From Styela clava (lineage: Eukaryota; Chordata; Ascidiacea; Stolidobranchia; Styelidae), in assembly GCF_964204865.1 (NCBI RefSeq), contig NC_135263.1:9283426-9347425 (forward strand): a stretch of 64,000 bases of DNA, given 5' to 3'. A program made the position numbers and the translations under genes. A model generated the notes under the pieces. It was not told the origin of the DNA and did not search any database. It saw nothing but the letters and a program-made list of their open reading frames with translations. Numbering within the stretch: the stretch's first letter is position 1; each line of letters starts with the position of its first letter. Positions 1-41,630 of the stretch are shown here, one piece after another.

Positions 1-3000
1 AGAATGCAACATTTAGCATACTGTTGCCATAGAAAACAATGATTGTAAATAAAATGATAAAGATGTTTTTGATATAAAGGGCCGTTTGTCATAAAATATA
101 GGAATGTGTTAAAAATAATCTGCTGCAAATACGACATACTTTGAAAGAATTCAAATCGCTGTAGATTGCTTTCTCAAAATTACTCAAAATTATGTCATAT
201 TTTAGGTTTGCTGCATATAAAAATTTAAATGATGAACATTGCTAAACAGGCACTAATTTTGGATATTGGTTATGAAAATATTAAAGCACAACAAATCTCT
301 ACAAAACCTATAGAATTAATGTTACATAAGAATATGATACCAGAGTGTCGCTGCTTATGAGTGATTTTATTCATGAGAGCGTCTCTTGCTGCATACTAAG
401 ACTTTATGCCATTCTTATAAAATGGCTTGGGCCCACTACGCCACATACAACGACCGAAAAACGAGAAAGTTAGACAAACATAGCGTGTGAAAATATGTTT
501 GTATGCTTCGTAATTTGGTGGCCGTAAATTCAGAGGTATTTAATGCAACGCCATCAAACTAAAAACTTAAAAAGATCAAAACCTTTTTATTTGTATACCA
601 CATCATAACCATTTGTCTGTAAAATGTTTTGTCAAAAGCGAGTATTTGCTAATAGCAAATACTACAAAATTGACATTAGACGGCGGAAGCATTGAAGTTT
701 CGGCGATTGATACACATGATATATTCTTGTATTGTACGATATTATAATTGAAATCATTTCAAAATCATTGAAAGTAATTTTTATTATTGAAATATTTGTA
801 GCTTGTCAAACACAGCCAATAAGCTAGCTTGTAATGTGAGCAAGGGTTCCACAAACAACATGTTTTTAAAGCGAAACGATCATTTACATCCGCCGACAAT
901 ATAACACACGATTATATTGTGTGAGCGTTTTATATCGTTTTACAATACGATAAGCATAAGTTTCAATAGAATTGACTTTTTACCTGTTTAAATCGAGCAA
1001 TATCATACTAGTGTATTATGTCGTTCAATTGCTGCTTAGTTCTATTGCTGTTCTATTCCATCTTTTTGACTGTAATGTTAAATACATTTTGAGTCATCTT
1101 TTCAAATTTTATAAATGTTTTAATTTTTATGCATGAGCTATATTACAAGACCGTATCTTTGAACTATAATACGCCTCATCTGGGGCAGTATTTCTCGAGG
1201 TCAACGCCCTATGTCACAAATATAATTACGTTTGGATAAACTTTTTGTGGTTGTATAAAATATTTATTTACGTAATAAAGTTTTATAGTCTGGGTATAAA
1301 CTGGGCTAATTATTGTGTTATACAGTCAATACAAAGAGTTTATATTTGTTGGTTTGATTATTGAAGCAATTTCTGGACCTCTTTGAAAAAATAACACATT
1401 CATATATATACAATAAATACTACTAACAATTTTATAACAATTAAATTAAAAAATGATACAGTGTGATGTCATTGATGATTACAAATTGTAATAAACTGCA
1501 ATCACTCAAACACCCAGTACAAATAGTTAATTACTTATATATACACTTCGATTCATCAAAAAACTATTTCATTTACGTATATCTACAGATCACATTAAAA
1601 AATCTGTTTAATTTTGTCCACTGTATATACTAAACATAAAGCATTTTATGCTACTAGGCGTGCGTGGAATGTATCAATCAGATTGACTGAACAATCAATG
1701 TCCTGAACGAGATAATATTAGTCGATATACTTTTGAAGAATTTTCGTAAGCCGTATTCTATTCTAGATAAAATGCCAAAAATTGTTTGTTTTTTCAGGGA
1801 TTAATTAAAAAATGAATGCTGCAATAAGGGTTGCAGTGGCACTCGTGACTGGTGAAAATCGATTAATGTAATTCGCCAACGCTTGTAATTTCATTACAGA
1901 AAAGTTTATTTGGGTTCGTTAGAACAAAAATGAGTGAATAAAAAAACTCATTATGCATGCTTCGCTGAAAATTACCCAGAATGACTTTAGAAATATTATA
2001 CATGAGATAATGGGAAAACGGCGTTTAACTTCACATCTCGGTTTTTTAACTATATATAATGTTATTAATAAGTTGTAATGTATTTCAAAATCGCAATTTC
2101 AAAAAAGCATTATCATACAGTTAACACTTCTAGGAAGACAACAGTTACAAAAATTATAATGTGTCTAAACTAATGTATTTTTTTGAATCATTGCGGAACA
2201 AATCCATTTCAATCGCAGCTGGCCGAAATCCGCCATTATAACAGGATAACCCGCCATGGTTCATGGGTTATATTTATAAAACCGTAAATTAATTGACATA
2301 AAATAAAAATTTAAAGTAAAATGGTGTATAAATTTTACAATCAGTTAAACAGTGTGGACTGTTACCAAACATTTCAATTTGGATTGCGTTTACGGTACCT
2401 CACGCTGCGAGTCTAATTTTGTCACACCTGTCATCCGGAGGTGTTAATGTGCCATCTTCACGCCGAATTAAAATATTCAAGTGTAAAATAATCAACTCAT
2501 ATCGATGTTTATGACTCCCACGGAGGATATTTTATAATCGTGACAATGTCCGGGGGTTTCAATGTTTACGTTTATATCATCTGTGATTTGTCACACGGGT
2601 GAGTAAAGACATGATTACGATTGTTAACCTGAAAAAACATTTATTTCAAATGTGTAAGTATTCTTGAACGTATGTCCCGATTTATCTTTTTTTATCATAT
2701 TGTTGAAACCCCCTTCAGAAAGCAAAAATAACAGTTAAGTTGAACAGATTGCTTTATTGTTATTTTTGCCGAGCTCATTGGTTTATGTTTGTAATTATGA
2801 ATTGTTCTGAACAAATCAACACGGTTGTAGCGTTGGCTGTGTTAAGTTACGATAGTTACTTAGAGTATTTTACTTGCGGGCCGTTTATTTGAGATAAAAA
2901 GTAAAAAGTTCCAGGCATACTTATAATTAATTAGGTATCTGTGTTCTCATTGAGATGTTTATATATGTCAAAATACTTTCATCTCAAACCAAAATAAGCC

Positions 3001-5553
3001 CGACAGCAGATGTTCATTCTCCGCATTGGTCGCTGTTTTCAAATATAATGTAGTGCTTTATTCTTAATTGTATCAAATTTGAAATCGGGGCTAGCTAGAG
3101 AACAACCAAGTATGATTGAGAAAAATTATCTATATTCTACACTTGACAACTGATTAACTTTTCGATACTAAACATCCACGCGTGTGAGCAACGAATATGT
3201 ATAAATATACAATTAAAATCAATAAAATTAATCCCCAACGAGGACCAGTAGACAAAGTGGTTCAAGACAAACGATCATAATAATGTAAAACAATATTTGA
3301 TGGCAAACATATGAGGACATAATTGTTCGAATTCCACCGAAGATATGGACAGAAAGCACTTAGTCATTTGTACACAATCGAGTGTTAACAATTTGGAACT
3401 CATCGCCCAATGTTGGTCCAACTACGTCAATACCTGTTACTAAATACTTACTAAAGCCTTCCTTATTATACACGGAGTTTGTATTATGTTTGTATTTCAC
3501 AACCGATTCGATAAAATCTAATTATGCTTGGCAAATCACTTTAAAACACTAGTAACGTCAATTTTCAGCATTCTCGAATAACCTCTCTTATAGACGAAAT
3601 ATACGGATATTAGTATGCAGTTGCTTACGTATACTAATCGAAACATTTCGATTTTCATTTGAGGTGAAAAAGGGAAAACAGACACATTTATTCACTGTTC
3701 ATAATGGTCGGCAACCGATGCCATCGCCATGATTGTTTAAAATATAAAATCATCGTGGCATGATCATTAAAATAACACTCTGAGCAACTAAAAATGCTCT
3801 TTATTGATACATCATTAAATGTTCCTAATTCATCATGTAGCCATTTTGTAAAGCTTTCGGCATGGACCCATTTTACTATGATTATGCAGATTATATGGGT
3901 GTAAAAATTGACCAAATAATAAACTCCTAGTTAGGACGGAATTATTTACTCGTAATTACAGAATTTTCATTTTTCAGTCAATAATTTTCGAAAATTTAGT
4001 TGTTTATGTTGTGATAACGTTAATCTAAATATCAAATTTTATTTTGAAAACTTTTTGATTTTCAAAGTGTATCAGGAACTGTTTGTATTCATAAGATGAC
4101 AGGTATATTTATCTCAATTTTAACAACATGTTCGAAATCAGGAAATTTCAATTACGCATCCACCAGTGAACTGTTTTATGTATTACATAAAAATAAGAAA
4201 TAAAATGAAGCAACAAATTCGAAATTTTCGTATTTTCAATTTTTAAAAATTGCTTTGCCAAAAAGTAAACGTTTTTTTTCTTCAAATGAAAGCAAAAAAT
4301 ATTGTAGTGTTTAAAATTTCGCATCATATTGAACAGGCAGGACTATATCTATTAACAAATATTTTTTTGTTTAGTCGTTTTGTAGTGTTTTCAATGAGCG
4401 TAACATAAATATTTTTTTAAACAGCTTTAATGTGTTTTGATAGTCATGAAAACATAACTTAATAATAGAAAAGTGGATTCTATTTTTAGTAACTTCAAAT
4501 ACTCAGCAAAAAATGTATCCACGAATCTAAGTCTGAAATGTTTGGAACAGTGATAAAAATAATTTTTTTATGGCTGCCAGTGCACATTCGCCTGCGAATT
4601 GTGTTTGCAATTTGGATCGATTTTCATATGGCTTTGGAGTTATGATAAAACAATCTAATATATGTATCGGATCTTTGCATAAACGAGGGACATTATTATG
4701 TTATTAACGTGCAAATAAAATGCTATTATATCCATGACGTAATTAACAATGACGAAATAAACAAACATTAGCGTCGAAATTAAAATAGTAGAAAAAGGGG
4801 ATGTTTTACCTATTTAGATTTTATTCATTACGTCTAGATAATGTAAAAATAATCCGAAATTCCAAAGACCCATTTAAATTCCTACATTCAAGTTAACTCA
4901 TCAATTCGTAACTTTTCTTCTAAGATCTCTCCGAACGGTCATTTTAAAACTTTGTGAGGTTTTATGCCTTTTGAAACCATAAGGGTTGATTTTAATTCCT
5001 AACACACCTTTTTACCACGAAAGATTGGTATTTTTAAAGCACGCCTGGCTCGGGAAAATATTTTTGAGCGACATGAGCAAATAGTTCGCGAATAACTTTT
5101 CTGATCGTACGGACATAAGCTACCTGAAAACTAAATGGGCCATATCGTACCGACATCACGAACGGATTATCGCCAGCGTTTCATGTTTGGGGGTAACTAG
5201 AGTTTCAGTCTAAATATTGGCATTTGCTGCCTCACATAATACTTTGGTGAATTATCGTCTAAACAAACATTGATATAGAAAATACTTGTGCACTTTATGT
5301 CTGTGGCCAATTAGGACTGATTTACAAGAAGTGCACTTTGTAATTTTTGCCAATGGTAATTAGTGGTCCTGTGTTATAATTGCAATGCTGTTTTTACCCT
5401 TTAGTCACTTAAACATTGCTTGAACATTAACCGCCATATTATGAGGGTACAGAATCCTTATAATGCCTTATTATATGGCTAGTTAAAAATTCATTTATGA
5501 TCGGTCAAAATGGCCATTTTTGCCTCATTTTGATGTTATAAATATTGCTTCAG
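1..5553. other. No recognised gene; upstream region or 5' intron of the Wnt gene
   Basis: AT-rich sequence with stops in all frames. I see no exon with homology to a known family and no clear repeat. The first coding exon of the Wnt gene, carrying the initiator Met and signal peptide, should lie here or before position 1. A short ORF at 1018-1092 has a signal-peptide-like start, but its only plausible donor leaves the wrong phase for the next Wnt exon. Confidence 0.4.
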
Positions 5554-8500
5554 GTTTTTCAGCAAATTCCAAGGGCTTCCTCATACAATAGGCCCAAGAA
5601 TATGTGATCAAATGTCTTTAGTTCCAAAGCAAAAAGAAATGTGTCTGGAGTAAGTATAGCTAGAATTGTATTACTGTACTTTACTATAAGTTGAACAAAA
5701 TAATAAATTTTCTTTCAATTTAGTGATCCTAAAGTGATGGTGAGTGTCGGAGAAGGAGCTTTTAATGGAATTGCAGAATGTCAATATCAGTTTCGTACAG
5801 AGAGATGGAATTGTTCAACAATTGAAAAAGGACAAACCGTTTTCGGGAAAGTCATAAATCCTGGTAAATACCATTTTTATTGAACCATATTTCATCGATT
5901 TTTAACATTAAGATTCTATATATTTTCAAAACATCACAAAGAAGACAAACTTTTTCGTTTTGTTATCATTTCTTTCATGTGTTACCAGGTATAATTGAAA
6001 GCTCGAAATCGACTTATTTTTGAGACAATTTTAAGTTCATACAATACATAACCTATAATATTCCTAACATCTCAGGTGAGGTTAAAAGAGTCGTTGAAGG
6101 TGAGAGACAATTTGTGAAAAGAAATAATTGGCTTTGTAACAATTCAAACCGATTTTTCCGGCTAATCAACTTGAGCTGGGTGCAAATTACTTCGCTAAAT
6201 CAAAAAGTAATCGAATAGCTCAGAGCATGATTTTAACAATTCTTTTGATAACAGACATAAAAGTCAAGGCTTTCACGGTGCTAATTAAAGCTGACTAATT
6301 AGATGCTTAGAAATTATTAATGTTTCGACACGAGTCCCTATGATATTTAGCACGCGTTTGTCCAAAAATAGATCAAAGTACCTTAAAATTAAATTTAGTG
6401 GTAACGTTTGTATGCGACCTACGAACTAACGTGATGAGTCTTGGCGCAATTCAATGCATTCATTAACCTGTCCTATTATTTTTTCATATTTGAGTTACCA
6501 TCTTTGTTCAATCCAACATATTTCAACGGAATATGTATTACGGCACCCCTATAAAACGTAGTTAATTGCGAATAAAATGACCATTTATACAATTTTAAAA
6601 TTTGCAAATTCAAATAAAAAATACAGGGTGTTCATAAAATCTCTTTATAATTTAGGACATAGTGTCATGAATTTTAAATTGACTTCTTGGACACCCTGCT
6701 GTATATTGCTAAATTTCTCAAGGAGTTTTACTTACCATCCAAATTTTTCAAGCAAAATCAACTTCCAAATAATCAATTTAATCTTGAAAACATTAAAAAA
6801 ATCACACAAAAACGAGATTTGTAATGTTTATAATATAAATATATTTATGTATTTTAAACTTAAGAAACTGAATGAATAAGTGCGCACCTGAAACATCCAG
6901 CAGGAAGTTTTAATATGATATTGTCTCAATTATAAGACAATTCAAATCGTTATAGGACCAACTTATTATGACCAAGTGTATAATTGAACTAAAAAGCAGC
7001 TCATGATTGTACTAATACAATGAAAATGAAACATCTTTTGTCACGAATTACGATGGTGAAAATTATCGAACAATTCATTATTAATTATGTTTTGGAAAGT
7101 TTATCCGAAACCACCATCCAAGTTTCTGTTGCGCATTCAAATTTGCCAATAAGTGAAATACCGGAAAAAGTCGCGCCGGTTACCCGCAATAATAATGTGA
7201 TAATATTCAAACCTTTTCAGAATCCGATTTTCCGTGTTGATAATTTTAGGATTCAGAATTAATTGGAGTATAAAATATTTTGATGAAAATATAAAATTCT
7301 TGGAAAACAGTCGTATAATCCAGATCTTGATGTCAAAAGAAAAGTTAACATAAAGCAGACTGTTAGATGCCATCTATTAGAACGTGCAGGAATGTCGGAA
7401 CGTTTCAATCAACAAGTCTTTGCCATGAACCTTTTATTTACACGTTCAAAACTCATTTCCAAACAGATAAAAACATTTCGCTTTGTAATCATGGATTGTT
7501 TTGAAAAATTAAATTCAACAGTAGACTCAGTTGTCAGAACGTTTATATATTCTCCTTCGTCCAAAATGTAGCATTCAATTTTCACATGCAACATCTTTAA
7601 TATATATTTTTTTTATTGATATTTTTTTTAAAACGCAACCAATTAACCAACGTTTTACCAATTTGATAAAAAGTGTATAAATTGGAATATTGCCGAGTAA
7701 CATTTTCAATCTTTTTACCTAATTCAAGAAATTAGAGTAAACGCGGAACCATTCGCATCATACGTAACACGATGCCAATGACGTAATACGATTGTGTCAA
7801 TTGGAAAACTAAATTATTTTATTGGAATCTGCTATTAATTGCATTTTCTATTGTTCGCTTTATATTCAACAGTCCTATTACATTGCTAATTTTCTTTTGA
7901 TTGTGACCACTAATTACGTTCCAATACGTTTCTAGTAATCTTACTTGGAAAGTAAATTGTCCTAGACTGATACCTTAACAAGCCTGTAGAATAGATATAT
8001 CGCACTGTATCCACAGTACATACTTTGTACAAGTGAATACATTACGAATCTTGGAATATCTAATTACTATGAAATATGAAATATTTTGGTGCATCTTTTA
8101 TAGTAATGTGGCTTGTAACTTACGTCAAACAAAATTTGTGTATCCGCGATTTAAGTTATTTAATAACGTACAGATTCTAAGAAGTAACAATGACATAAAC
8201 GTGGAACTGTGTGATCGCAATCTTTCTTTTAAAAATCATGTGTGCATTGTTTTACCATATTCAGAAGTGATTGAACTATTTTGATATACAAAAACAGTTT
8301 AAAAATATAGCTATTAACAAATGATGATGTGGTCGCCTTTTCGTAAACTAGTTCTATGTTATCAAATAGGCTCGATATATAGCGATTTTGCCCGCTTATT
8401 ATGCACTTCGGATATTGCTAAGAGTGACTAAGCTATGACGATGAAAAGATAAATCGTTGGCTCGGTTTGCTTTTCATTTATTTTATTAGTTAGTTTGATA

Positions 8501-11500
8501 AATAGTCAACACAAATAATATTATGTAGGCTCTGTATTTTTTCAATTAGGTAGTCGGGAGGCATCGTTCGTTCACGCTATCACGGCAGCAGGAGTAATGT
8601 ATTCGGTAACGAGAGCCTGCAGCAGAGGTGATATCAATTCTTGTTCTTGTGATCGAAGAAAACGTGGAGATGATGAAGACAGAGAAGGTAAAGAAATACA
8701 AAAAATTTGAAGCTATTAATTGAAGGTTTGATGTGAATATCAGAACATATCAGAATGAACTAAATGTAATTAAAATTATAACACATCACACTTAATATAC
8801 ACTTGACATGGGAACGATGAGAAGAGGATTTTTTTCATATATATTTTCAATACGTTTATTATTATAATTTAGGAAAATTTACCTGGGGAGGCTGCAGCGA
8901 TGACATCGGAAACGGCACTTACTTTGTTCGAGAGTTCGTAGATGCAAGTGAAATTAATGTTCACGATGCAAGAGCAGAGATGAACCTTCATAATAATAGA
9001 GCTGGACGACGAGTGAGAATTTTTTTAACATTTCCATTTGAATAACACAATAATGGATTTCTAGTCGATCTGATATAGAACCTTCATATTGCGTGAAGAA
9101 GCGTTTGTTGCTAGGTCTGCAGCCAAGTTGATCAACTTAATATCGTATCATGCATTATGTATGCTGTCTACATCAATAAAATGCAAAACACTTCGTTGCA
9201 TCCAATGTGAAACAAAAGTATATATTATTTTACTAAAAGAATATAACGGGCAATCATTTATCTGAAAACAAGCCACCCCGAGGTGTTGATTGTTAATTAA
9301 AAAATTTACCACGATCTTTATTTAAAGAAATATACTGGGATGCGAAAATTATGAAATATTTACAAAAAAAAAACGGGCAGTTCTTTTTAACTCACTTGGT
9401 CGTCGTTTCAACCAATTTATTTTACTTGTTTTCTGGAAGAGATTGCTCATACTTAAAACGTGATCAACAGAATATGTTGTATCATATATAAAATACATCC
9501 ATGTAAATATTCTAGACTAAATACGACTTGACGGTCACTTGATGTTCAAAACTTAAGATAAGGGGCTGAAGTAAACTATGTTTGGGGTGCGGTAGCCAAA
9601 CCTATGTCAAACAATATTTTTGTGACTTTTGTGTATTCACATTAAAAGAAATTAGATAATACATCTTCAAACCTTGCTCAGAGTATTATGGGAATATTTC
9701 TCACGGTGGGTAACGTGTTTATTACAAACGAATGAACGTCGCAAAAATCAATCATAATTATTTTGGTTATATAACGAGAAGAGAAAAAAGAATCAAAATT
9801 TATCAGAATCAGAAAGTACTAAGAGAATTTCCTTACGCATTGCTGGGATACGGTTTCATACTCTAATTAGGTATTTCTAAGGGGAATTTGTTGACTTGTC
9901 AGCCTATACGCGACAAAGTGTCTCCACTGGTTTCGATTACAAGTTTACTAATGGTAAGTATAATACACAAATTAAAGGAAAATTTTCAATTAATTATGTA
10001 CAAAAATATGTCCTGAATGCCAGGTATGTTTACTTGCCACCAGAAACAATATTAAATGGGACATCCCGATTTATATATTTAAATCAACATGGAAAATATT
10101 AATACACATGAAAAAACGTGTATTTTATTAAAATAAAACGTTACAAGCATGTATTTATGTAATTGAAGATCTTATTTCTTTCGTTAACTAAAACAGAATA
10201 TCCGCACCAAAACTTACTTAGTCCGTGAGAACTGTCAATCGCTTATTCGATGGTTCAAATCAAAACATTCTTACGTCGCTTTGTATCAATGCATAAGTAG
10301 AAATGTTTCTAAATTTAAAACAATATGACGTATGTTACGAATCTGTGATGATTGCGGATTACAAAACATATAATCGGTGTTTTACTCCTTTTAATACGTA
10401 TCGGAATACCTGCGGTTTGCATTTTGTAATTTGTTTTAATATTAGAACGACTCATGCAAGATGTAAGCTTGCAAGATGATCGTTTTCACGTTTTGAAACA
10501 GAATTCACTGTTGTATTTAGTTCGCAAGAATTACAAGTTCAGTGTAATGAAAAACAGCAAAATGAATATGCTTCAATTGACGATTTTTTTTCCAAACATT
10601 CCAATTGTCTAAAAAAAATTAATGGAACTTAATCTAGTTCCAGTTTCCACACATTGCGTCATTTGAAATAATGAAATTTCCACAAAGAAAGAATCTTTCA
10701 AATATTTGATTTTGACAAACTTGTTGTCGGGATTGCTTTGATCTTTTATTGACAATGTACAATTTTCTTTTATCTTTACTTTTCATTGAATGCTTCGAAA
10801 TTTCAACATGGAAAGTAAATAAATGTAAGGATTATTAGATTAGTTCACTGAACTCAAGAATCAAATACGATCATATTGAAAGCCAGGGTTAACTATAAGG
10901 TAACAGGAGCGATAGAATAAGAGATATAGCCCCCTGTGTGGCCCGATGTGTTTGATTAATTTTCACCTCCAGTGAGTGACTGTGTAAACCCGAAAGACTG
11001 TTTTGGAGCTGTAATGTTAAATCATATAATTTGTATTTTTTGTATTCTGACAGGCTGTGAAAAAATTCGTGAAGCGTCAATGTAAATGCCACGGAAAGAC
11101 TGGCTCGTGTTATTTACGAACATGCTGGGAAGCAATGGGTGAATTCAGGCTTACTGGAGACTATTTGAAAGCGAAGTACAATAATGCCGTTCGGGTCACA
11201 GTGACACATAATGGACCGAATACAGCAGTGGAGACAGGAGGCGAACTAGTATCTGCTGATAAGCTCAATCCGCCTTCAAAGAATGATCTCGTTTATTTAG
11301 AGAATTCTCCTAATTATTGCACAAGAAACGCAAAAATAGGTGAGAATGTCATATTATTTCCTGAAAATGGGTAAAGTTTCTTTCCAAAGCTGATTTAATC
11401 GATGAGGTTTATGAAAAATAAGGTATAACGTCCAATCCCTTACGATAATAATGAGATCTGTGTAAACGACGATCATTTGGAGCGCCTAAATGTTATTTTT

Positions 11501-12736
11501 GGTATGTATACATATATAACATCTTATGGAATAAGTATTTTTAACAATCATATTAGCTACACCGATTACGTATTACTGATTTAAATTTGAGTAAAAAAAG
11601 CGCAGAACGTTGAAGAAGTTTGCCTGCTAATGTAGACAAATTGAAGTGGATGAATCTTCATAGAATTTCGATATCTTCGATTTCTGTGTTTCATAGCTTT
11701 AATTATAATGTTGGAACAATTATTAGATTTATTTCTCGAATTCAACTTAATAAAAACCATCTTTCATATATATGTTGCGTATTTTGACGACATTTTTTCG
11801 CTTTTATGAAATCTATTTATAATTATCCAGGTACTTATGGGACTGGTGGTAGGGAGTGTAATGCAACATCGACTGGCAACGATGGGTGTGACAAACTCTG
11901 TTGCGGAAGAGGGTATACGACTAAAAAAGTAACGAGAATCGAAGACTGTATGTGCGAATTTCATTGGTGCTGTGAAGTAAAATGCCAGAAATGCAATCAG
12001 GTATAGAATATCTCTCGGGTTTATTAATCTTGTGTTTTATATTATAAAAGATTAAAAAAGCACATATAAAAAAGCACATATATTTCGGTTTACAATTTAT
12101 TTTTTGTGTGTGTGCAAAAACAAGCTTCTGTCAATAATTATAATTATTTTGGCTCATTTTTGATTGTTACGTTACAGTTTATTTACGTCAAGTTTGCTTG
12201 TCACGTCTGGATGATTCATGGCGACATTAATTCTGATGATGCTCATCTTTCTGTTTAAAATGTAAATGCTCTTGTTGGTTTTGTACTGCTATATTTAATG
12301 TACCAGTAAATTGAGTGCAGGCTGGTTCCGGTTAGCATATAATCTAGTAATGCACAATTTACTTCTTTTTTTAATAACAATCGATCTTTTGTAGACGATC
12401 GATATCCACACTTGCAAAGAAGAAGATGAATTTGACATCTCACACGTGGATGCAATACCTTCAACAACATCACCATCAACAACCACAGTATCTACAACAA
12501 AAGCAAAGCGCAGAAAGGGGAAGGGACGAAAAGGAAAAAGACGAAAAGGATCAAAAAGAAAAAGAGGGAAGGGGCGCAGAAAGGGTAATAAATCGAAAAA
12601 ACGCGACAAAAGAGATGTCAAAAACTTTTATAAAACAGACAATTACCGTACGCGATTTTTTTCACGAGCAAAACAAGACACAGGTTCTCAGAATCAGAGA
12701 ATTGTATCAGAACGAGGCGGCACTGTTTTAAGATGA
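5554..12736 (+). CDS. Wnt ligand, Wnt2-like, with unusual basic C-terminal tail (5' exon missing)
   Basis: Secreted Wnt family ligand for Frizzled/LRP receptors. Coding exons: 5554 (or 5563)-5649, 5724-5863, 8550-8687, 8873-9012, 11054-11339, 11831-12000, 12395-12736; all junctions are GT-AG and the phases agree. Visible motifs in order: ICDQ near the start, [75 protein letters not shown] followed by [36 protein letters not shown] and IDIHTC. The NNRAGR and KNDLVY-ENSP motifs and the introns after NNRAGR and before GTxGREC fit Wnt2 best, but subfamily assignment needs a tree. About 433 residues are visible. Two oddities: Thr replaces the acylated Ser (codon 11099-11101), and a Lys/Arg-rich extension follows the last conserved Cys. 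A possible AATAAA lies at 13081-13086. The signal-peptide exon was not identified. Confidence 0.93.
6624..6698. mobile_element. Possible 75-bp MITE in a Wnt intron
   Basis: CAGGGTGTTCA at the left end faces GGACACCCTG at the right end, so the ends are inverted repeats about 10 bp long. It lies in the intron between the second and third visible Wnt exons. No clear target-site duplication was found, so this may be a small truncated element or chance. Confidence 0.3.
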
Positions 12737-14274: not shown

Positions 14275-16866
14275 CAGGGCTGGATTTATTTAGGTAAAAG
14301 TTAGTAAAGTGTAAATACAAATTTGTTTTCTATCGAAAAACCCAAATTTTCGGTATTATCCTTATCTCTACCTAGACTTCGCCCCGCGCCACCCGTTTCG
14401 TTTAGGCCCTTGTTTTGAACGAACAACGAAATATGGTGATAGATTATGTGTCGAAGGGGGCATTCGGCCTGGGCAGCAGTTCGCAATGTGTTTTTATTTA
14501 TTTAAAATCATTGAGTTAGAGTTTAGGCTGACATTAGGTTATAGTTTTGTGTAAGTCATTGTAGTGATGGCGAGTCAACAATGGATGTTTCCCCGACCCT
14601 TGACCCCAGAAAAATTCTCCATCTGATTTTTTGCCATGACGACAGTTTCGCACATGCGAGGCTGCAAAGTTTATGTTTGATTCCAGTACGACGATTACTG
14701 CCGAACACGACGATTGGTTTTACTTATTCTTCGGTTTTCTTCTTATGTAATTTGATATCTCCAAATTTGATCCCACGGACGAAGCGAATACAACCAAGCG
14801 GGGATCAATATCATCGCAAGAAAAGACGCACGGAAGCAGATGATACTGTCCTGAGAGGCTCTTTAGATGTGTGGTTGAAAAAGCAATACGTCGCGAAAAA
14901 TCAATTGGGTGCTGAAAATCATGAATTTGTGACTGTCGTCCAAGGTGAGGTCAGTAGTCCAGTTAACACTTGACATTGTTCGTGACAATCAATCGCACAA
15001 TTCGATTCCAGATAACGCTGGTGATTTTGCCGAGATGAGTGCTAATGCTGAGGCAAATGCTGTCACTTTGAACAACGACACTGAAGGTAACAATAACGAT
15101 GGAAATTTCATCGAATTATAGGTGACCACGACCTTGGGCGTTTAAGGAAGCCGATATCTACACATTTAGTAAAATTCTTAGTTCAGCAAAGGACCAGAGA
15201 AATTACAACACCAAGAAGATTCTTTTGCTAAAAGAGAAGAAAGATCTCTTTCTAAGCAGAAACTTTGTCAAGTAATGCAGAGTGTATGTAGAGAAAATGG
15301 CTGATATATTCGCAATGCAAGGCAGCCTTTTTCTTTGTCTGTTTTTTATTTTCAAAATGTGAATCACGTTTTTGCGAATAATCAATCTTATTGCCGGTAT
15401 AATTAAGAAGAATATTATTTCTGAAGTAAAGAAAGCTAAATATTACACTCTGATGTTAGATTCTACTACAGATATATCACGAGAGGATCAAATTACCGAG
15501 ATCTTGAGATACGTCCACATCAGTGAGAATAAGGATGTCAAAATTAAAGAGGTTTCTTTTGGTTTTTTTCAAGTTTCTGAGAAAAACGCCGTAAGCTTAG
15601 TAGTAACGGTGATTGAGAAATTGAATGATGATGGAATTGACATAAATGATTGTCGAGCACAAGCATACGATAACGCGGAGATGTTATGAGTGGTGTACGA
15701 ACTGGAATACAAAAACGAATTTTGGATATCAATCCACAGGTCCAGTTTGTCAATTGCGTAAACCACAGCTTAAATTTGGCATGTGTTCATGCAGCTGAAG
15801 TTCATCCAACAGTGGTTACATTTTTTGGTATTATGGACAAAATTTTTGTTTTCGTTTCATCTTTAACAACACGTTGGGAAGTACTGAAGTCAAAGGTTAA
15901 GAAAACTGTCAAGAAGCATAAATGATATAATGTCTCGAGTATTTTGAAGATGGCAAATTTTCAAGTGAGACCAAATCTGATGCTTGTTCACTTCGCCATT
16001 CGTTGCAGCAATTTCCATTCGTTTCTCTCTTGAAATTTTAGTACCCCATTTTGTCATCCGTTCAGAGAGTGACAAAACGCTTACAACATCCATAGATTGA
16101 TTTAATTCAGGCGAGTGATGATTTTGATGGGCTCAATAGAATTATTGATCTGAAATCTGAGGACATTATTAAGAATGCAGTCAGACCGGCATCCGAATAC
16201 TGCGAGGAGTGGGATGTACCCTTGACAAGAGTCGGGCGTAAAAATGTCTGGAGAGAGTGCCTGGAGAGAGTGTGAAAGACTGTGGCTTATCAGCAATTGA
16301 GGAAATGAAAATAATTAGGAATGAAATCGCAAACAGACTGGAGACCGAACTTTCAGAACGCTCAGGTCGCGTTAGTAGACTCGCTGACAAGTTTTCCTTC
16401 TTATTAAAGTTGAATTCAATTGATGTTGAAAATATGGAACATTTGAAAACCTTGAAACGACAGTGCGAGATTTTTTTCTAACCATTTTGAGACCGACGTA
16501 AACGCATTCTCCCTCTACGAAGAAATCGTTGATTGCATTACGCTTTCCCGAAGTGGAAACAGAAATTTTCCAAAAAATGCTGAAGATTTTCTTGCTTCAT
16601 TGGTTGAGCTTGGTTGGGATGTTTTTCTGAATTTGTGCATTGGATATCGTTTGTTACTCACAATTGGCTACTCAATTGCTAGTTGCGAACGATCTTTCTC
16701 AAAGTTGAAACAGATAAAAACATATTTGAGGTCTTCAATGTCAAATCAGCGCATGTCGAGTTTGTCTTTGATAAGCATCGAAAAAAAATTCCTGACAAGT
16801 GAGGTGAAAGAGGCTGTCGTTCAGACATTTGTTGACAGCAAAGTAGCGATTGGACATAGAAATTAA
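14275..16866 (+). pseudogene. Decayed hAT transposase (ZMYM-type/DUF4371-like)
   Basis: The left end CAGGGCTGGATTTA at 14275 looks like a hAT terminal repeat; no matching right end was found. The coding remains are split over frames. 14581-14973 ends in a basic segment like the N-terminus of ZMYM1-like hAT proteins. 15372-15689 carries MLDSTTDISREDQ, the catalytic-core region with its Asp. 15686-15925 carries VNCVNHSLNLAC. 16600-16866 carries the hAT C-terminal dimerisation segment (SCERSFSKLKQIKTYLRSSM). Several frameshifts and stops separate these parts, so the element is dead. Confidence 0.75.
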
Positions 16867-29010: not shown

Positions 29011-31036
29011 CGGTTGTTGTTGTTTTATTTTACAGAAATAGAGATAGGATATGACTCGGCGCAAGATCGAGATTGTCCTGAATGGATCATGATAATTTCG
29101 GGCAAAGCTCAGCATTTAAAAATCGAACGAATCATCTAAACATAAAGCGTCGACTAATCGAGAAAGAGACTTGACACGACACTATAAGATAATTTTGAGC
29201 GAGTCCTCGGAATAGCAAAAAAAATCCAGTGAATAAAGTTATACCACACCCTTCATTTTGTTTGGAAAAAATTCTCTAGTTTTTTTGCGGCAGTAACTTG
29301 AAAATGAGCCGTGCTGATGTCGATGTATAGTTGATAACAAATAAGCATAGGATTGATTTTCTCATTTATCTGGGGGGAGGAAAGTCGACATGGCGACTGA
29401 ATTATATGGCGTAACACGCCTTTCGCCGTGTTGATATTCTATGACAGTACGACAGTATTGTACGATACCTCCAAGTCCAGAGCATTTTATCTACAAGTCA
29501 TGCAAACCTAGATTTGTATTTCGTTGTTTAGATCTTTACACAAGCATCACTTGTATCTGAACTGAGTATATTTCTGGTACTCGATTTAATGAAAATCATG
29601 TGAGAAAACATGAGGTTTTAAAGGGTGGGGAGTTTGTAAGGGTATTTCACTTTGAGAGAATTGTGTTTTCTGCCAATCCATTTGGGCAAAATTATTCTAA
29701 CGACGAATTCTCTGAAAAAAATTAATTTTGCACAATCACATCTTAATCGTAGTTCCAAGGTAACTGTTTTACACGTAACATTGAAATGTTTTAGTCTAAA
29801 TTTATTTGAGCTATAATAATGGCGTTACAGAGAAGTAATTTGTAAACTGATTGTAAAAGTTTAAAGAGACAAATATAAACCCCCAAAGAAAATAACTTCC
29901 CGAAACAGGAGTCGTCTAAAATAGATGGTAACCCGTAGAAGTTGACTGACAAGTTCAATTGTATTGTTACGTTAGTAGAAGAACCTGCAAATCGACAGAC
30001 CTGAACTACTATAGTAGTTCACTTATTGTTAGAATGGAATTGATCACACAAATTATATCACACAAATCACAAGTATGTTTTTTGCAATAATTTGTGACCT
30101 GGTGGGCGACCGCAAAAACACGACTTTGTGAGCTAAGTATGTTCTTTATAATATCTACTTAATTATGAATTATTATTGTAGTTTCTGATGACAAATCGAT
30201 CTTTACGTTTTGTCATATCAACCAATTTGAAAGTAAATTTTGTTTACAATCAATTATCTTATTACACACCAATACTTTTGAAATACTCATCGTAATTTTA
30301 TATAAAAGAGTGATCGATAATACTACTAAAACGGGAATAGTCATGTAAAAAAGTCTCCTATGAACTGCCCACATTTGTGAAAAAGATACGAAGAAAGATA
30401 GAAAAACTTTTCTTTTAAATTTTGTGAATTCAAAACTATTTCACTTCAAAGCCTAGCGTTGGTAAACACGCTTGACTATTGTTATTGTCTAATGCAAATA
30501 CGGGACAAACAATTTGACAAATGCTTCCAATAAAGCTTGTTTAATTTGAAATGAGATCAGCCCCTACGACATACATAAAGCTAACTAGATCAAATATTCC
30601 CGTTGTATATCCATATTTGCGGGCGACAATGAGAAGCCGCGAGTAAAAACATTTTTCTACTATTTGTCACCACATAGATTCGGTTAACTCAGTATTGCGC
30701 TGAGGTGACAGAAATATTTAATATGTTGATTTTCAGCAACCAAATTTTTGAACGTTCGGAGCGTCAAAAATTTAGCATTTGATTTGTAATAAATAATTAG
30801 CAATGCAAATTTGCATTAAACTAGACAAACCGCAAAGAAGATTATATAGGTATATAAAAAGAAATATAAATATTATATTGTACCGAATTCTTTGTTTATA
30901 TATAGTATGGATTACTCAACAAAAAGTTTTCTTGATAAGTAATCAAGGCACGCAACTTGTTTCTTGTTCTCAATAGTGTTTGTACTGAAAACTCTGATAT
31001 CCTTTTTTTACAAGCTTACGTTTGTATTGCCAAGGC
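29011..31036. other. Upstream region of SLC7 copy 1, no gene recognised
   Basis: No supported exon. The block at 30001-30150 matches 35160-35330 upstream of SLC7 copy 2 (shared ACTACTATAG..GTTCACTTATTG, TTTTTTGCAATAATT and AAAAACACGAC), so it is a conserved promoter-proximal or duplicated flank. About 790 bp at 30165-30955 have no counterpart upstream of copy 2. Confidence 0.45.
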
Positions 31037-33821
31037 ATGGAAATTCGAGCGGAAGCCGTGAATAATGCAGCTTATTCTGGTACGAAAAACAAACAACCCA
31101 AAGAAGTATTCGAATTAAAGAAAAAGATTGGATTATGGCGCGGGGTTTCTATTCTTGCTGGAATTATGGTCGGTTCTGGCATATTTTTGTCTCCCGTTGG
31201 TGTGCTGGCCGGTACCAATGGTAGTGTTGGAATAAGTTTAGTACTCTGGGTTGTCTGTGGCTTATTCTCAGGTCTGGCGGCATTGTGTTATGCTGAACTC
31301 GGAACAACTGTAGTAGAATCTGGAGGTGACTTTGCATATTTTAATGCAGCTTATGGAGGACCCGTTGCTTTCGCCTTTTCTTCGGCGTATCTTTTTGTTA
31401 TGTACCCGACGGGGAATGCAGCTAAAGCCGTTGCGTTGGGAACATATATTGCTACACCTTTTTACAATGGAGATTGTGCTCCACCGACCACAGCTATCAA
31501 GTTTGCGGGAGCTGCAGCAGTTCTTGTGGTGACGTTCGTGAATTACTTCAGTGTTCGAAATGCTGCTAGAGTTCAGGTTGTATTCACCATTGCTAAATTT
31601 GTCGGGTTGGCGGCTATCATAATTGGTGGAATTACACGCCTGGCGGATGGAGACCCAGTTGCAAATTCTAATTTTGTGAATGCGTTTGACCCCAAAGCAT
31701 TAGCCGGTCTCACTGCAACGCAGATTGGATTAGCATTCTACCAGGTATACAATTCTTTGTGCGGTTTTACTATCAGTTTAAAAGTTCGACCATGCAAAAC
31801 TTACATTGTCTTGTTAAGAAAATTACATACAGTTGTCTCGAAACTTGTTGTTAGTGTAAATGTACATTAACAGGGACTTTTTTCGTATGATGGATGGGCA
31901 AATTTGAATAGAGTGACAGAAGAAGTTAAAGACGTGGGAAAAACTCTGCCAAGATGTATTATGATAGCCATCACTGGAGTGACTGCATTTTATGTTCTCG
32001 TTAACATAGCTTATTTTTCGGGTAATTTTTCATTCTAAGCTAAATAATGATAACTATAAATTGTTTTTGTGAAGACCTAAATATTTTGAGTGATGATTTT
32101 ATTTATATATAGCGTCGACAGTAAGCGATAATAATTACAACAATGCATGAAAATGTGGCCGTTAAAAATTGAATTAGTATGTCCTCATTGACATTTTCCT
32201 GATTAGCCAACGTCACGGAAATAGCACGTGCATAAATCCATTGGAATAAAGTCTATGGTTCCAAAAATAATTAGGTGTGTGATGGTCCCCAAAAATTTAC
32301 TTCCGAAGTCACTCATCTGACCAAATATTGAGTAGATTTGACATTTTTCAGTTCTCACTCCTGAAAACATTCTGTCTTCAAAAGCAGTGGCTGTTACATT
32401 CGGGTATCGAGTTTTTGGATCTTTTGGTTGGATAATGCCATTGGCTGTGTGCCTTTCTATATTTGGATCACTGAACGGATCTTGTTTAGCTGGTGGAAGA
32501 ATTGCATTTGCTGCAGCTAGGAGAGAGCACTTGCCTCAAGTAATCTGAAACGCTTTTATACCTTACTTGACAACAACATTCATTTATATATCTATTTTTA
32601 TGAATCCACTTTTATAATGAATAATTCTTATCGACTGGCAGTATCTCTATAAGATATTTAAAATATATTAGTATAACAAGATTTTGCTCTGATAACGCAA
32701 AATATGAGTGACAATAGTGATGAATATCATAAGTTTTAACTGCTACAAGTCACGTGAAAACTCTTGGCAAGAAATGTATATGATTATTAATATCAGATAT
32801 TCAGCAAATTTATATTCTATCAACATAAACTTTGCTTCTTTTTTTTTATAAAATTTGAAGACGTTTTTCTGTAATATAAATGGCAGAATATCTTATCATT
32901 ATTTTTTTTTAGATATTTTCTATGATTCACGTCGAGCATATTACTCCGGGACCATCTCTCCTTATTCATAACTTACTCGTTTTAATAATGCTTATACCTG
33001 GTGATTTTGACACTCTTCTCAACTCCATGAGTTTTGCAACTTGGATATTTTATGGTTTGGGAGCAGTCGGAGTTCTTGTTCTACGAAAAACAAGACCTGA
33101 CTTGCCGAGGCCTTACAAGGTTACATAAATATTTTTTTAGATTTAAATCTCACTTTTTGAAGTGATCACTCAAACTTATATCTATATCAAATATGGTGTA
33201 AATAAATAGTTACATGATTAAATACACTTCAACGCTATATACTACTCTGGTTGAAAGGACTAAATGTTTGAATTTTAAATTATAGTAAATTTTGGGACCT
33301 CCTGAAGTATGCGCACCAAGATGACGCACAACCTGAACTCAGATTGTGTACTAGGTTAGAGTTCAGTTCGTGCGACATCTTGGTGCGCATACTTCAGGAG
33401 TACCAAATTTTGTACTGTTCATGTATTTGCCTTGAATGAATAAAAGATTTTACATATACTTATACAAGGAAATTTGAGAAGTCCAAAGTACAAACTTCTT
33501 GAAAAATAACAAAACATAAAATCATTAAGAGTCCAATTCTTGTAATTTATTTAACAGGTTCCTGTTGTTATACCTGTCATTGTCGCTATATTTACAGTTT
33601 ATCTGACAATTGCTCCATTAATCGAAAACCCGGATATTTCTTACTTGTATGGTGGAATATTCATACTTTGTTCGCCGATTTTCTATTTCCTGTTTGTCTA
33701 CAAAAAGCTTCGTCTGCCAGGAATGGATCACTTCACAATATTTTTGCAAAAATTTCTTGATGTTTCACCAACGGATTGGGAAGACAAGTTGGCAATAAAT
33801 GCTTCTGATAAGAGTGAATAA
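31037..33821 (+). CDS. SLC7 amino-acid transporter light chain, copy 1
   Basis: Exons 31037-31744, 31874-32021, 32352-32539, 32913-33119, 33558-33821; the phases agree and the product is 504 aa, typical for LAT/b0,+AT proteins (SLC7A5-A13 branch). It is expected to be a 12-TM obligate amino-acid exchanger. TM1 carries the substrate-binding GSGIF (residues 46-50). CYAELGT near 84-90 and ESGG at 94-97 are LAT hallmarks. Cys147 in PFYNGDC is at the position that forms the disulfide with an SLC3 heavy chain. Exon 2 starts with the YDGW segment of TM6. The C-terminus ends SPTDWED then Ser/Asp/Lys-rich residues. ATG 31037 is chosen because it aligns with copies 2 and 5. AATAAA lies at 33864. Substrate cannot be decided from sequence. 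Confidence 0.93.
33285..33413. repeat. Foldback element in intron 4 of SLC7 copy 1
   Basis: An inverted repeat with arms of about 50 bp (left arm CTCCTGAAGTATGCGCACCA, right arm TGGTGCGCATACTTCAGGAG) and a short loop near 33340-33355. It could form a long hairpin in the pre-mRNA. Counterparts occur at the same site in copies 2 and 3. Confidence 0.8.
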
Positions 33822-35415
33822 TTAGTACATCGCACAATGTACATTTTCATAAACATTGACATTAATAAACAGATATTAAACATACTTTTTAGTTTGTATG
33901 TGCTAACTTGGCTACTTATATGCTTATGAACTATATTTCATTTCACTTTCAATTGTTCTGTGATTCCACTGATTTTGTATAAATGTGTATGGTGATTTTG
34001 TCGTCTGGAATTCTTCAGATCATAAATCAAAATATTAGCGCTATGTTCAGTTTGCGTTTACGTTAACTTAAAGAATATCTTTCAGATGAAATAAATCCAC
34101 GATATAGTTTTAGAGAGATTTCTGCTTATAAACTTAACTCTGATCCCACTTGTTAAAGTACCATAATAGGTAAAAAACACTAATCTTTGTTGGTTATTGC
34201 ATGAAACATTCATGCGAAAGCGAGGTAGTCAATTTGTACCCCGAAAGACGTGATGCGTCATTTTGTAAATGGATCTGTACACGAAATGTAAACAATTGTT
34301 ACTTCGTTACTAAACGCATATTTTTGTCTAAGACTTGTTTACAAAGTGGGGTGATTTTTCTCGTCAAAATGAAATATGATGTGTTAATATTTTATCTTGC
34401 ATAAGATAATGGTAAACTTTATATTGAATCTGTATACAGTATATAAATTTATATGCAGCCTTCTACAGAATGTGACGCACCGAATTTTATATGATTGCAG
34501 AAAACAAATATACTTCATAAGGCCACATTACCTATGTACACAAACTAATGCCATTATTTCAATACGGATGAAAAAGTGCTTCACAAATTAGAATTTCGAA
34601 AAAAAAAACTTGGCATTGATGTTAATATTTGTTTGACAATAAACGCAAAATTTAGTTCAAATACTGCTGTCCAATTATGTCCTGAAAGTATTGTTCAAAC
34701 AAACGATCTTTTAGCGTAGGAAGATAGATATAGCTAGAACATACCAGGCAACTATAGCAGTATTGGCAGAAGAAAAATTAATTTCAGAATCAGCAAATGA
34801 AATTTCCATTATTTCAAGATTTTAATCATTAAGAGACGAGATATTAAATGTCATTGAAAAAGAACGTTAAAGGTTCAACCTTAAATTAATATTTGTAACG
34901 ATAGTTTAATTTTTTTAAATAACCAAAATTTGAGGTCAAATTCATTTATGGAATCAGTTACTATATATTTCGCGTGTAAAATCACAACAAAAAAACTCTA
35001 TTCGGCAAAGTTTATCTTCTATACCCATATCATAGTTGTGCAGTTTCCGGTCATTATTTTCCAGAAAACTGATAGCTTTCACGAACTAAGGAGTTTTTCA
35101 CCTAAATAAGGAGTGGAAATAAAATCAATTTGCGATCCATATATATTATGAATAATAGAAAGGGTAGAACTACTATAGGAGTTCACTTATTGTTAGGATG
35201 GAATTGATCACACATATCGTATTATGTTTTTTGCAATAATTCATGCCCATGCGAAGTCCCCAAAAACACGACGGGTCACGGCTCTGTGGGCTCAGTATAT
35301 TCCTTGTAATTGCTACCTAATATAAATAAAGTACTTGTTCCTTGTATTTAATAGTGTTTGAACTGAGAACTCTGATATTCTTTTATTTACAAGATTACGT
35401 TTCTATTGGCAAGGC

Positions 35416-38225
35416 ATGGAAATTCGAGCAGAAGCCGTGAATAATGCAGCTCATTCTGGTACGAAAAACAGTCAACCCAAAGAAGTATTTGAATTACAGA
35501 AAAAGATTGGATTATGGCGCGGGGTTTCTATTATTGCTGGGATTATGGTCGGTTCTGGCATATTTTTGTCTCCCGTTGGTGTGCTGGCCGGTACCAATGG
35601 TAGTGTTGGAATGAGTTTAGTACTATGGGTTGTCTGTGGCTTATTCTCAGGTCTGGCGGCATTGTGTTATGCTGAACTCGGAACAACTGTTGTAGAATCT
35701 GGAGGTGACTTTGCATATTTTAATGCAGCTTATGGAGGACCCGTTGCTTTCGCCTATTCTTCGGCTTATCTTTTTGTTATTTACTCGACGGGGAGTGCAG
35801 CTAAGGCCGTTGCGTTGGGAACATATATTGCTACACCTTTTTACAATGGAGAATGTGCTCCACCGACCACAGCTGTCAAGTTTGCGGGAGCCGCAGCCAT
35901 TCTTGTGGTGACGTTCGTGAATTACTTCAGTGTTCGAAATGCTGCTAGAGTTCAGGTTGTATTCACCATTGCTAAATTTGTCGGGTTGGCGGCTATCATA
36001 ATTGGTGGAATTACACGCCTGGCGGATGGAAACCCAGTTGCAAATTCTAATTTTGTGAATGCGTTTGATCCCAAAGCATTAGCCGGTCTCACTGCAACGC
36101 AGATTGGATTAGCATTCTATCAGGTATACAATTCTTTGTGCCGTTTTACTGTCAGTTAAGAAGTTCGACCATGCAAAACTTACATTGACTTGTTAAGAAA
36201 ATTACATACAGTTGTCTCGAAACTTGTTGTTAGTGTAAATGTACATTAACAGGGACTTTTTTCGTATGATGGATGGGCAAATTTGAATAGAGTGACAGAA
36301 GAAGTTAACGACGTGGGAAAAACTCTGCCAAGATGTATCATGATAGCCATCACTGGAGTGACTGCCTTTTATGTTCTTGTTAACATAGCTTATTTTTCAG
36401 GTAATTTTTCATTGTAAACTGAATAATGATAACTATAAATTATTTTTGTGAAGATTTAAATATTTTTAGTGATGATTTTTTTATGGCGTCGAAAGTAAGC
36501 GATATTAATTACAACCACGCATGAAAATGTGGCCCCTGAAAAATTGAATCGGTATGTCTTCATTGACATTTTGCTGACTAGCCAACGTCATGGAAATAGC
36601 ATGTGCAATAAATAGCATGTATTCATTGGAATGAGGTCCATGGTTCCGAAAATATTTAGGTGTGTGATGGTCTCTAAACATTTAGTTCCGAAGTCACTCA
36701 TCTGACCAAATATTGAGTAAATTTGACATTTTTCAGTTCTCACTCCTGAAAACATTCTGTCTTCAAAAGCAGTGGCTGTTACATTTGGGTATCGGGTTTT
36801 TGGATCTTTTGGCTGGATAATGCCATTGGCTGTGTGCCTTTCTATATTTGGATCACTCAACGGATCTTGTTTAACTGGTGGAAGAATTACATTTGCTGCA
36901 GCTAGGAGAGGGCACTTGCCTCAAGTAATCTGAAACGTGTTTATACCTTGCTTGACAACAACATTCATTTATATATTTATTTTTATGAATCCACTTTTAT
37001 TAGAATGAATAATTCTTATCGACTGGCAGTATCTCTATAACATATTCGATATATTTTAGAGCTTAGTATAACAAGATTTTGCTCTGATAACGCATAATAT
37101 GAGTGACAATAGTGACGAATATCATAAGTTTTAACTGCTGCAAGCAAGTTATGTAAAAACTCTTGGCAAGAAATGTATATGATTATTAAGATTAGAGATA
37201 TTCAGCAAATTTATATTCTATCAACATAAACTTTGGTTCTTTTTTTTATAAAATTTGCAGCCGTTTTTCTTTAATAATAAATGGCAGAATATTGATCATT
37301 ATTTTTTAGATATTTTCTATGATTCACGTCGAGCATATTACTCCGGGACCATCTCTCCTTATTCATAACTTACTCGTTTTAATAATGCTTATACCTGGTG
37401 ATTTTGACACTCTTCTTAACTCCATGAGTTTCGCAACTTGGATATTTTATGGTTTGGGTGCCGTCGGAGTTCTTGTTCTACGAAAAACAAGACCTGACTT
37501 GCCGAGGCCTTACAAGGTTACATAAATATTTTTTTAGATTTAAATCTTACTTTTTGAAGTGCTCATTCAAACTTTATAGCTATATAAAATATGGTGTAAA
37601 TGAATAGTTACGTGAATAAATACACATCAACACTATATACTACTCTGGTTAAAAGGAGTGAATGTTTGAGTTTTAAATTAGATGAATTTTGGGACCTCCT
37701 GAAGTATACGCGCCAAAATTGCGCACAACCTGAACTCAGGTTGTGTATCATGTTGAGGTTCAGGCTGTGTGACATCTTGGTGCGCATACTTCAGAAGTAC
37801 CAAATTTAAATTCAAGTACTGTCCATGTATTTGCCTTGAATGAATAAAGTATTTTAAAGATACTTATACAAGAAAATTTGAGAGGTCCAACGTACAAACT
37901 TCTTAAAAAATAACAAAATATAAAATCATTAAGAGTCCAATTGTTGTAATTTATTTAACAGGTTCCCGTTGTTATACCTGTCATTGTCGCTATATTTACA
38001 GTTTATCTGACAATTGCACCATTAATCGAAAACCCGGATATTTCTTACTTGTATGGTGGAATATTCATACTTTGTTCGCCGATTTTCTATTTCCTGTTTG
38101 TCTACAAAAAGCTTCGTCTGCCAGGAATGGATCACTTCACAATATTTTTGCAGAAATTTCTTGATGTTTCACCAACGGATTGGGAAGACAAGTTGGCAAT
38201 AAATGCTTCTGATAAGAGTGAATAA
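35416..38225 (+). CDS. SLC7 amino-acid transporter light chain, copy 2
   Basis: Exons 35416-36123, 36253-36400, 36737-36924, 37310-37516, 37962-38225; 504 aa, the same exon lengths as copy 1. Nearly identical to copy 1, with scattered conservative changes (for example SIIAG for SILAG, YSTGS for YPTGN, NGEC for NGDC) and TGGRIT instead of AGGRIA in TM8. GSGIF, the heavy-chain-linking Cys in PFYNGEC, and the YDGW segment are intact. The introns also align with copy 1, showing a recent tandem duplication. AATAAA at 38268-38273. Same family role as copy 1; it may differ in substrate preference through TM8. Confidence 0.93.
37685..37810. repeat. Foldback element in intron 4 of SLC7 copy 2
   Basis: Same element as in copy 1. 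The left arm is slightly diverged (GAAGTATACGCGCCAAAATT), so the hairpin is less perfect. Confidence 0.75.
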
Positions 38226-39450
38226 TTAGTACATTGCACAGTGTACATTTTCATAAACATTGACATTAATAAACAGATATTAAACAATTAAACATACTTT
38301 TTAGTTTGTTTGTGCCAACTTGGCTACTTATATGCTTATGAACTATTTTTCATTACACTTTCAATTGTTCTGTCATTCCATTAATTTCGTATAAATGTGT
38401 ATGATTTTATCGTCTGGAATTCTTGAGATCATAAATCAAAAAATCGGAGCTATGTTCAGTTTGCGTTTACGTTAACTTAAAGAACATCTTTCAGATGAAA
38501 TAAATCCACGATATAACATTTTTTGTTGAATATGCAAAATAGAAAAAAATTTTGTGTTAGATTTTTTTACAAAATTAATTTTTTTTTATGCACAATCAAT
38601 AGTTTTAGGAAGATTTCTGCTTATAAACTTAACTCTGATCCCACTTGTTAAAGTACAATAATAGGCAAAAACACTAATCTTTATTGCATGAAACATTCAT
38701 GCGAAAGCGAGATAGTCAATTTGTACCCCGAAAGACGTGATGCGTTAATATGTAAATGGATCTGTACACGAAATGTAAACAATTGTTACTTTGTTACTAA
38801 ACGCATATTTTAGTCTAAGACTTATTTACAACGTGAGGTGATTTTTCTCGTCAAAATGAAATATGATGTGTTAATATTTTATCTTGCATAGATAATGGTA
38901 AACTCTTTATTGAATCTGTATACAGTATAAAAATTTATATGCAGCCCTCTACAAAATGTGACGTACCGAATTCTATATGATTGCAGAAAACAAATATACT
39001 TTAAAAGGCCACATTACCTATGTGCACAAACTAATGCCATTATTTCAATAAGGATAAAAAAGTGCTTCACAAATTAGAATTTCGAAAAAAGAAAACTTGG
39101 CATTGATGTTAATATTTGTTTGACAATAAACGCAAACTTCAGTTCAAATCCTGCTGTCCAATTATGTCCTAAAAGTATTGTTCAAACAAACGATCTTTTT
39201 TTTTTCCTGGCGGATGGAAACCCAGTTGCAAATTCTAATTTTGTGAATGCGTTTGAACCCAAAGCATTAGCCGGTCTCACTGCCACGCAGATTGGATTAG
39301 CATTCTATCAGGTATACAATTCTTTGTGCCGTTTTACTGTCAGTTTAGAAGTTCGACCATGCAAAACTTACATTGCCTTGTTAAGAAAATTACATACAGG
39401 CGATACAGCTGTCTCGAAACTTGTTGTTAGTGTAAATGTACATTAACAGG

Positions 39451-40072
39451 TGTAGGTAATAAACGGTGCTATCACCTAACTATGATGTGGAGTGATATCG
39501 TGTGATCCAATGTGCGAGTAACACCAGAAATACTTGAAAAGCCCGATCCCAAATAGTTCATTCAACATTTGTTGCTTTGACTTTATTGCATTATCGCAGT
39601 AGTAATGAACATCCATGAGTCAGTTTATTCCAGTTATTACACACAATTTAATCTAATTTATGAACATCACTCCAAATATTGACTAAATAAATAAAACAAA
39701 CATGAAAACATAACTTACAAAATAGCAAATTCCAAGAGCTAAACGACAGAAATGCGCTCACTAAAACCACTAAAAGAAGAGAGCGGCGTGCTGAAGAATT
39801 TACAGATTCCAGATTATTGGTCAGAATATACTGCCAAGTTGGCTCAATAAAATATATATTTGGGACTCCTCATGTATTAACCATGTGGAAATAATTATTA
39901 GTATCAAATTTTGGATAGGAATCACTTCATTTAACTGAATATGAATGTACCACGCTTATGAAATTGAACGACTATCGCAAGACTGGTATGATTGCGAAAA
40001 TAGATATTACGAAACACTTTCCTGGAACACAACCTAGTGCCCATAATTAATATAAAGGGAACATTTCTCACA
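39451..40072. mobile_element. Probable solo LTR in SLC7 copy 3
   Basis: A 622-bp insertion absent from copies 1 and 2. It begins TGTAGGTAATAAACGG and ends TTTCTCACA, so has TG...CA termini, and has AATAAA at 39846. Flanks ACAGG and ACGGA could be a decayed target duplication. No internal retroelement coding sequence is present. The precise family is not established. Confidence 0.65.
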
Positions 40073-41509: not shown

Positions 41510-41630
41510 TTTGGGACTTCCTGAAGTATGCGCACCAAGATGGCGCACAGCCTGAACTCAGGTCGTGTACCAGGTTAGGGTTCAGGTTATGCGACATCTT
41601 GATGCGCATACTTCAGGAGTACCTAATTTT
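41510..41630. repeat. Foldback element in intron 4 of SLC7 copy 3
   Basis: Same position and arms as in copies 1 and 2 (GAAGTATGCGCACCAAGATG and its reverse complement). Confidence 0.78.

Follow-up and report, generated by a model that had tools for sequence, protein, structure and literature searches.

A Wnt2-like gene of the ascidian Styela clava with threonine at the Porcupine acceptor position

A Wnt2-like gene with an altered acylation hairpin

This work describes a Wnt gene of the ascidian Styela clava located in a stretch of 64,000 nucleotides (NCBI RefSeq assembly GCF_964204865.1, contig NC_135263.1, positions 9,283,426 to 9,347,425 of the forward strand), referred to here as the window; positions given without a contig are those of the window. 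The gene comprises seven exons on the + strand (5554-12736), separated by six introns whose splice sites all read GT-AG, and has no internal stop. Within it, the codon at 11099-11101 (+ strand) is ACT, which places Thr at the position that Porcupine acylates, inside the hairpin CHGKTGSC. The Porcupine serine is regarded as a fixed point of Wnt biology. A preliminary description of this DNA had reported a Wnt gene with this very codon at this site; the codon and its coordinates proved correct, and the recovery of seven uninterrupted exons establishes a real Wnt gene with an open frame. The Wnt2 affinity of the gene, its long tail with a very basic stretch, and the presence of Thr in three more Wnt genes go beyond that description and came to light from the rest of the genome.

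Exon A (5554-5649, + strand) has an open frame and a GT donor after 5649, but its acceptor is uncertain (candidates at 5554, 5563, 5574, 5592, and 5599). The exons that follow, all on the + strand, are exon B (5724-5863; PF00110 match at 9289147-9289290 of contig C18, which carries the window), exon C, which ends in SCSCD (8550-8687; PF00110 match at C18:9291956-9292114), and exon D, which starts with WGGCSDDI (8873-9012; PF00110 match at C18:9292300-9292440). Exon E (11054-11339) carries the acylation hairpin and matches PF00110 at 97.7 bits (E value of 1.2e-27), and exon F (11831-12000) encodes the cysteine-rich C-terminal domain (PF00110, 81.6 bits, E value of 9.3e-23); both scores are above the cutoff of 20.3 bits. 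Exon G (12395-12736) contributes the last Wnt cysteine (HTCK) and a tail of 105 residues, and ends in the stop codon TGA at 12734-12736. Spliced together, exons A through G encode 436 residues in a single open frame. No convincing candidate for a first exon with a signal peptide was seen in window positions 1-5500; such an exon may lie upstream of the window.

By identity and tree position, the gene is assigned to the Wnt2 subfamily. We compared the protein with 12 reference Wnts (3 rows from PDB alignments and 9 human rows), a set that holds no WntA, no invertebrate Wnt, and no WNT2B, and its closest relative there is WNT2 (52.7% identity over 317 residues; next identity, 46.7%). A tree of 22 rows was built from these references and 10 S. 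clava Wnts, leaving out the copies of a tandem array described below; the S. clava rows were assembled by eye out of exon segments, with splice junctions only partly checked. In this tree the window gene groups with WNT2 at 86/67, which is under the strict support mark, and Wnt8A joins nearby on a long branch. The window protein shares the cysteine pattern of vertebrate WNT2/WNT2B. It differs from human WNT2 by the Thr in place of the acceptor Ser, by the Lys that precedes it, and by the 105-residue tail past HTCK, a place where the tail of human WNT2 is short.

All 23 of the 23 conserved cysteine columns in the 12-reference alignment are present in the window protein, in agreement with the earlier view that the Wnt cysteine framework is intact. 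This count bears on the possibility that the gene is decaying and that the Thr is an early neutral hit. The missing signal-peptide exon and a piece of a hAT element downstream of the gene could be read in that way, but seven open exons, six GT-AG introns, and the full set of cysteines argue against it, as does the profile search of the genome, in which a second clear Wnt2 did not appear. We regard decay as very unlikely.

The acceptor position and its deviation from other Wnts

The acceptor column is the sole position invariant across the 12 reference Wnts at which the window protein deviates. Ser occupies it in 12/12 reference rows and in 6/6 PDB Wnt chains with displayed alignments (Wnt3, two of Wnt3a, two of Wnt5a, and Wnt7a), out of ten chains matched; three Wnt8 chains and WntD are among the four without a displayed alignment. 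In place of the Ser of the CHGxSGSC hairpin, the window protein has Thr, and a hydroxyl is kept. Because the PF00110 profile and the cysteines are retained, and because WntD counts as a Wnt without lipid, the Thr acceptor is, as far as sequence can tell, a departure inside the Wnt family rather than outside it: a new variant in which the canonical acceptor Ser is replaced by Thr. The literature searched contained no mention of CHGKTGSC or of six sister hairpin motifs, and the searches found no study of Thr at a Wnt acylation site, Porcupine substrate-mutant and structure papers being outside their reach. A shift of the acceptor role to the second Ser of TGSC is an explanation that we rank low; data on Wnt3a S209A reportedly count against it.

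Drosophila WntD is a natural point of comparison, as it too deviates from the canonical acylated form. It is described as not lipidated in passages of three papers (PMC8415634, PMC7873896, and PMC10112924), whereas the window protein keeps both the hydroxyl and the whole hairpin and so does not lack an acceptor in the manner of WntD. The WntD structure (PDB entry 4krr) matches the window protein over only 75 residues in its N-terminal part.

Acceptor residues across the Styela clava Wnt genes

A profile search of the genome (376.6 Mb in 379 contigs) returned 75 PF00110 exon matches, and 30 loci were fetched. With hairpin exons counted once each and the array copies entering by their hairpin exon, 19 hairpins were readable. 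Among the 10 non-array genes, the acceptor is Thr in four and Ser in six, such that a hydroxyl residue is present in 10/10. Besides the window Wnt2, the Thr genes are L008/L033 (CHGLTGTC), the Wnt6-like L009/L034 (CHGITGTC), and L013/L037 (CHGATGGC); these three loci are on contigs C3 (two) and C16. Ser was read in 11/19 hairpins, namely, those of array copies L001-L005 and of the Wnt7-, Wnt3-, Wnt16-, Wnt1-, Wnt9-, and Wnt10-like genes. All 11 Ser codons are TCN and all 4 Thr codons are ACN, one transversion apart.

An assembly or base error at 11099-11101, or a rare variant carried by the individual sequenced, is hardly credible, since three further Wnt genes, on C3 and C16, also have Thr at this site, again with an ACN codon. 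This recurrence also shifts the balance between the two options that the preliminary description had offered, a weaker acceptor and a lipid-free ligand: it favors a working acceptor, and the second option loses ground. Under a neutral model of random single-step replacement of TCN codons without selection, Thr would be expected in 11 to 20% of cases, and the probability of Thr in 3/3 genes beyond the window is 0.0013 to 0.0075. On the tree, four label changes are needed (bootstrap range, 4-4), of which at least 2 are already required by the starred branches. Thr rows are not more clustered than shuffled labels, for which the mean was 3.7 and 500/500 shuffles were as low.

Among the remaining placements, the L035 row pairs with WNT16 at 92/84. 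The best reference for L033 is WNT2 at 40.9%, its position in the tree not being resolved, and labeling L032/L033 as WntA is a guess. L037 has a very long branch and pairs with WNT4 at 93/92, although Wnt4, along with Wnt8, is reported lost in tunicates (PMC8220140). As a separate observation, the Wnt6-like L034 (C16:18.7496 Mb) bears a long Arg-rich insertion, ERRETERRRRRRKFKTKGLRRRRGG, between its hairpin and its C-terminal domain.

A Wnt5-like tandem array with hydroxyl-less copies

Wnt5-like genes form a tandem array on contig C10, and in this array the acceptor hydroxyl is absent from 4/9 readable copies (L011, L016, L017, and L029; C10:8.89-8.93 Mb). The hairpin of L011 reads CHGLKDSC, that of L029 reads CHGLKESC in a broken frame, and those of L016 (CIDVPENMEIC) and L017 (CIDVPDKMEKC) are rewritten. 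The exons of L011, L016, and L017 are open, with a changed last cysteine domain. The four copies are candidate lipid-free Wnts born in tandem. Two partial array copies stand outside the 19 readable hairpins: L022 shows no more than a weak resemblance to the hairpin in one piece, CRYYGKDNGLKSC, and L019 yielded no hairpin.

The array matches the Wnt5 duplications described for stolidobranch and styelid ascidians in two accounts of ascidian Wnt repertoires (PMC5882950 and PMC8220140). The main texts of the tunicate Wnt surveys PMC6060547 and PMC8220140 do not contain the terms serine, palmitoyl, threonine, acylat, or porcupine, and neither palmitoyl nor porcupine occurs in that of PMC5882950.

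The basic tail of the window protein

The tail after HTCK contains 35 Lys/Arg among its 105 residues. It begins with an acidic, Ser/Thr-rich link of 27 residues, continues with a basic stretch of 38 residues (12500-12613, + strand) that includes 26 Lys/Arg and ends in RDKR, and closes with 40 more residues. The terminal RDKR fits the consensus of a furin-type site. The tail had no match in the PDB, and in the Pfam search of the last exon there was a CCDC106 match below threshold (E value of 0.29). The basic stretch is encoded by purine-rich DNA, through which a second reading frame (12378-12731) also runs open; for both reasons, growth of the stretch as a simple repeat is possible. With or without lipid, the ligand might be retained on heparan sulfate by this tail.

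These features bear on the explanation that the ligand is unacylated and lipid-free like WntD, perhaps kept near cells by binding of the tail to heparan sulfate. Beyond the precedent of WntD itself, the concentration of Lys/Arg in the tail and the existence of acceptor-less Wnt copies in the same genome speak in its favor. Loss of the lipid would, however, allow residues other than Ser and Thr at the acceptor, and the losses of the hydroxyl are confined to the array while 10/10 non-array genes keep it. The remainder of the hairpin of the window gene is also intact, and the basic stretch might itself be a product of simple-repeat drift. On this balance, a lipid-free mode is unlikely for the window gene.

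Lipid machinery in the genome

Nine MBOAT matches were found in the genome, one of which is a clear Porcupine orthologue in a single open frame (C14:7744674). It is identical to human PORCN at 171/473 aligned columns, keeps the regions of the WN and LHG motifs, and matches human porcupine in the PDB (entry 7ura) with an E value of 1.3e-85. Wntless is encoded at C18:18261815 by a single open frame whose product has GOLD and transmembrane domains, and the Frizzled profile gave 34 exon matches. With Porcupine and Wntless open and Frizzled exons present, the route for a lipid-bearing Wnt is in place. As a side observation on gene structure, the Porcupine and Wntless genes (L044 and L053) both appear as single, intronless open frames.

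Proposed explanation

We consider it probable that the window gene is a working ascidian Wnt2 in which Thr has replaced the acceptor Ser and is O-acylated by Porcupine. The change would have retained the hydroxyl that Porcupine esterifies, and the product of the genome's own Porcupine gene would acylate it. A ligand acylated in this way would still be carried by Wntless, and its lipid would still insert in the Frizzled groove. The sequences themselves show the Thr codon, the open gene, its recurrence in four Wnt genes, and the existence of Porcupine, Wntless, and Frizzled genes; the working state of the gene, the acylation of the Thr, secretion, and receptor binding are inferred.

Acylation of Thr is suggested here because the hydroxyl is kept and because a precedent exists in a sister MBOAT enzyme. 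According to PMC8316800, GOAT accepts Thr in the position of Ser but acylates it to a lesser degree, and in bullfrog ghrelin the acylated residue is Thr. Amphibian ghrelin Thr3 is a natural Ser-to-Thr replacement at an MBOAT acceptor that is acylated on Thr (PMC8316800), and the window Wnt2 has undergone the same swap at its acceptor. The two substrates differ, however: ghrelin is a short peptide to which GOAT attaches octanoate, whereas Porcupine attaches palmitoleate to a loop bounded by two disulfides (same source).

The extra methyl of Thr may reduce the rate or extent of acylation. A rival idea is that Thr is a hypomorphic acceptor and that partial acylation lowers the signaling or range of all four Thr Wnts, either as tuning or as a step toward loss of function. 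The reduced level of Thr acylation by GOAT is consistent with it, as are the long branches of 3/4 Thr Wnts (1.9, 1.92, and 2.76), but the branch of the window gene is not long (0.62), and we find the idea improbable.

Several points weigh against a working, Thr-acylated Wnt2. The other three Thr genes have long branches, a pattern that fits relaxed constraint on them. L033 and L037, both with Thr, are poorly placed: with L033 WNT2-like at only 40.9% and L037 joining WNT4, the subfamilies of both are unsure, and the origins of Thr would number three if L033 were a Wnt2 duplicate. Wnt copies in the same genome, those of the array, did lose the acceptor hydroxyl. Finally, no replacement of Ser is milder than Thr, which could persist through folding alone.

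Tentatively, and with doubt on our part, the observations can be extended to the Porcupine system as a whole. In this ascidian lineage the system may have drifted to accommodate Thr. Wnt2, Wnt6, a possibly WntA-like product, and a fourth Wnt would then be naturally palmitoleoylated on Thr, their acylation or deacylation kinetics would be altered, and a lipid-free Wnt5-derived tandem branch would stand beside them. If so, Ser-lipid, Thr-lipid, and lipid-free Wnts would all coexist in one genome. The 4/10 Thr genes and the 4/9 array copies without a hydroxyl together form a natural experiment on the requirements of Porcupine, Wntless, Frizzled, and Notum, in which the need of Wnt signaling for Ser, for any hydroxyl, or for no lipid becomes directly testable.

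Surroundings of the gene and genome context

No relatives turned up in the virus and prokaryote contig collections scanned (viral_contigs and genome_contigs). Elsewhere in the genome, on contig C9, a cellulose synthase exon (L057; PF03552 and PF13632) adjoins a GH6 exon (L056; PF01341), the two not being joined in one gene model. Cellulose synthase with GH6 marks tunicates among animals, and in this respect the genome looks like that of a tunicate. Within the window, ARAGORN predicted no tRNA, and no Rfam family matched at its gathering score. Downstream of the Wnt gene, positions 15363-16866 hold a piece of a hAT-type transposon that matches Dimer_Tnp_hAT; DUF4371 also matches there, at a score under its cutoff. 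Exons on the - strand at 57808-60835 include TNIQGLLKVAADNA and resemble the C-terminal part of dachshund; the piece tested against Pfam gave no match. Between these features, at 30998-50739, lie tandem exons of SLC7-like amino acid permeases, arranged as about five similar units in the list of open reading frames, of which the three analyzed by Pfam all match AA_permease_2.
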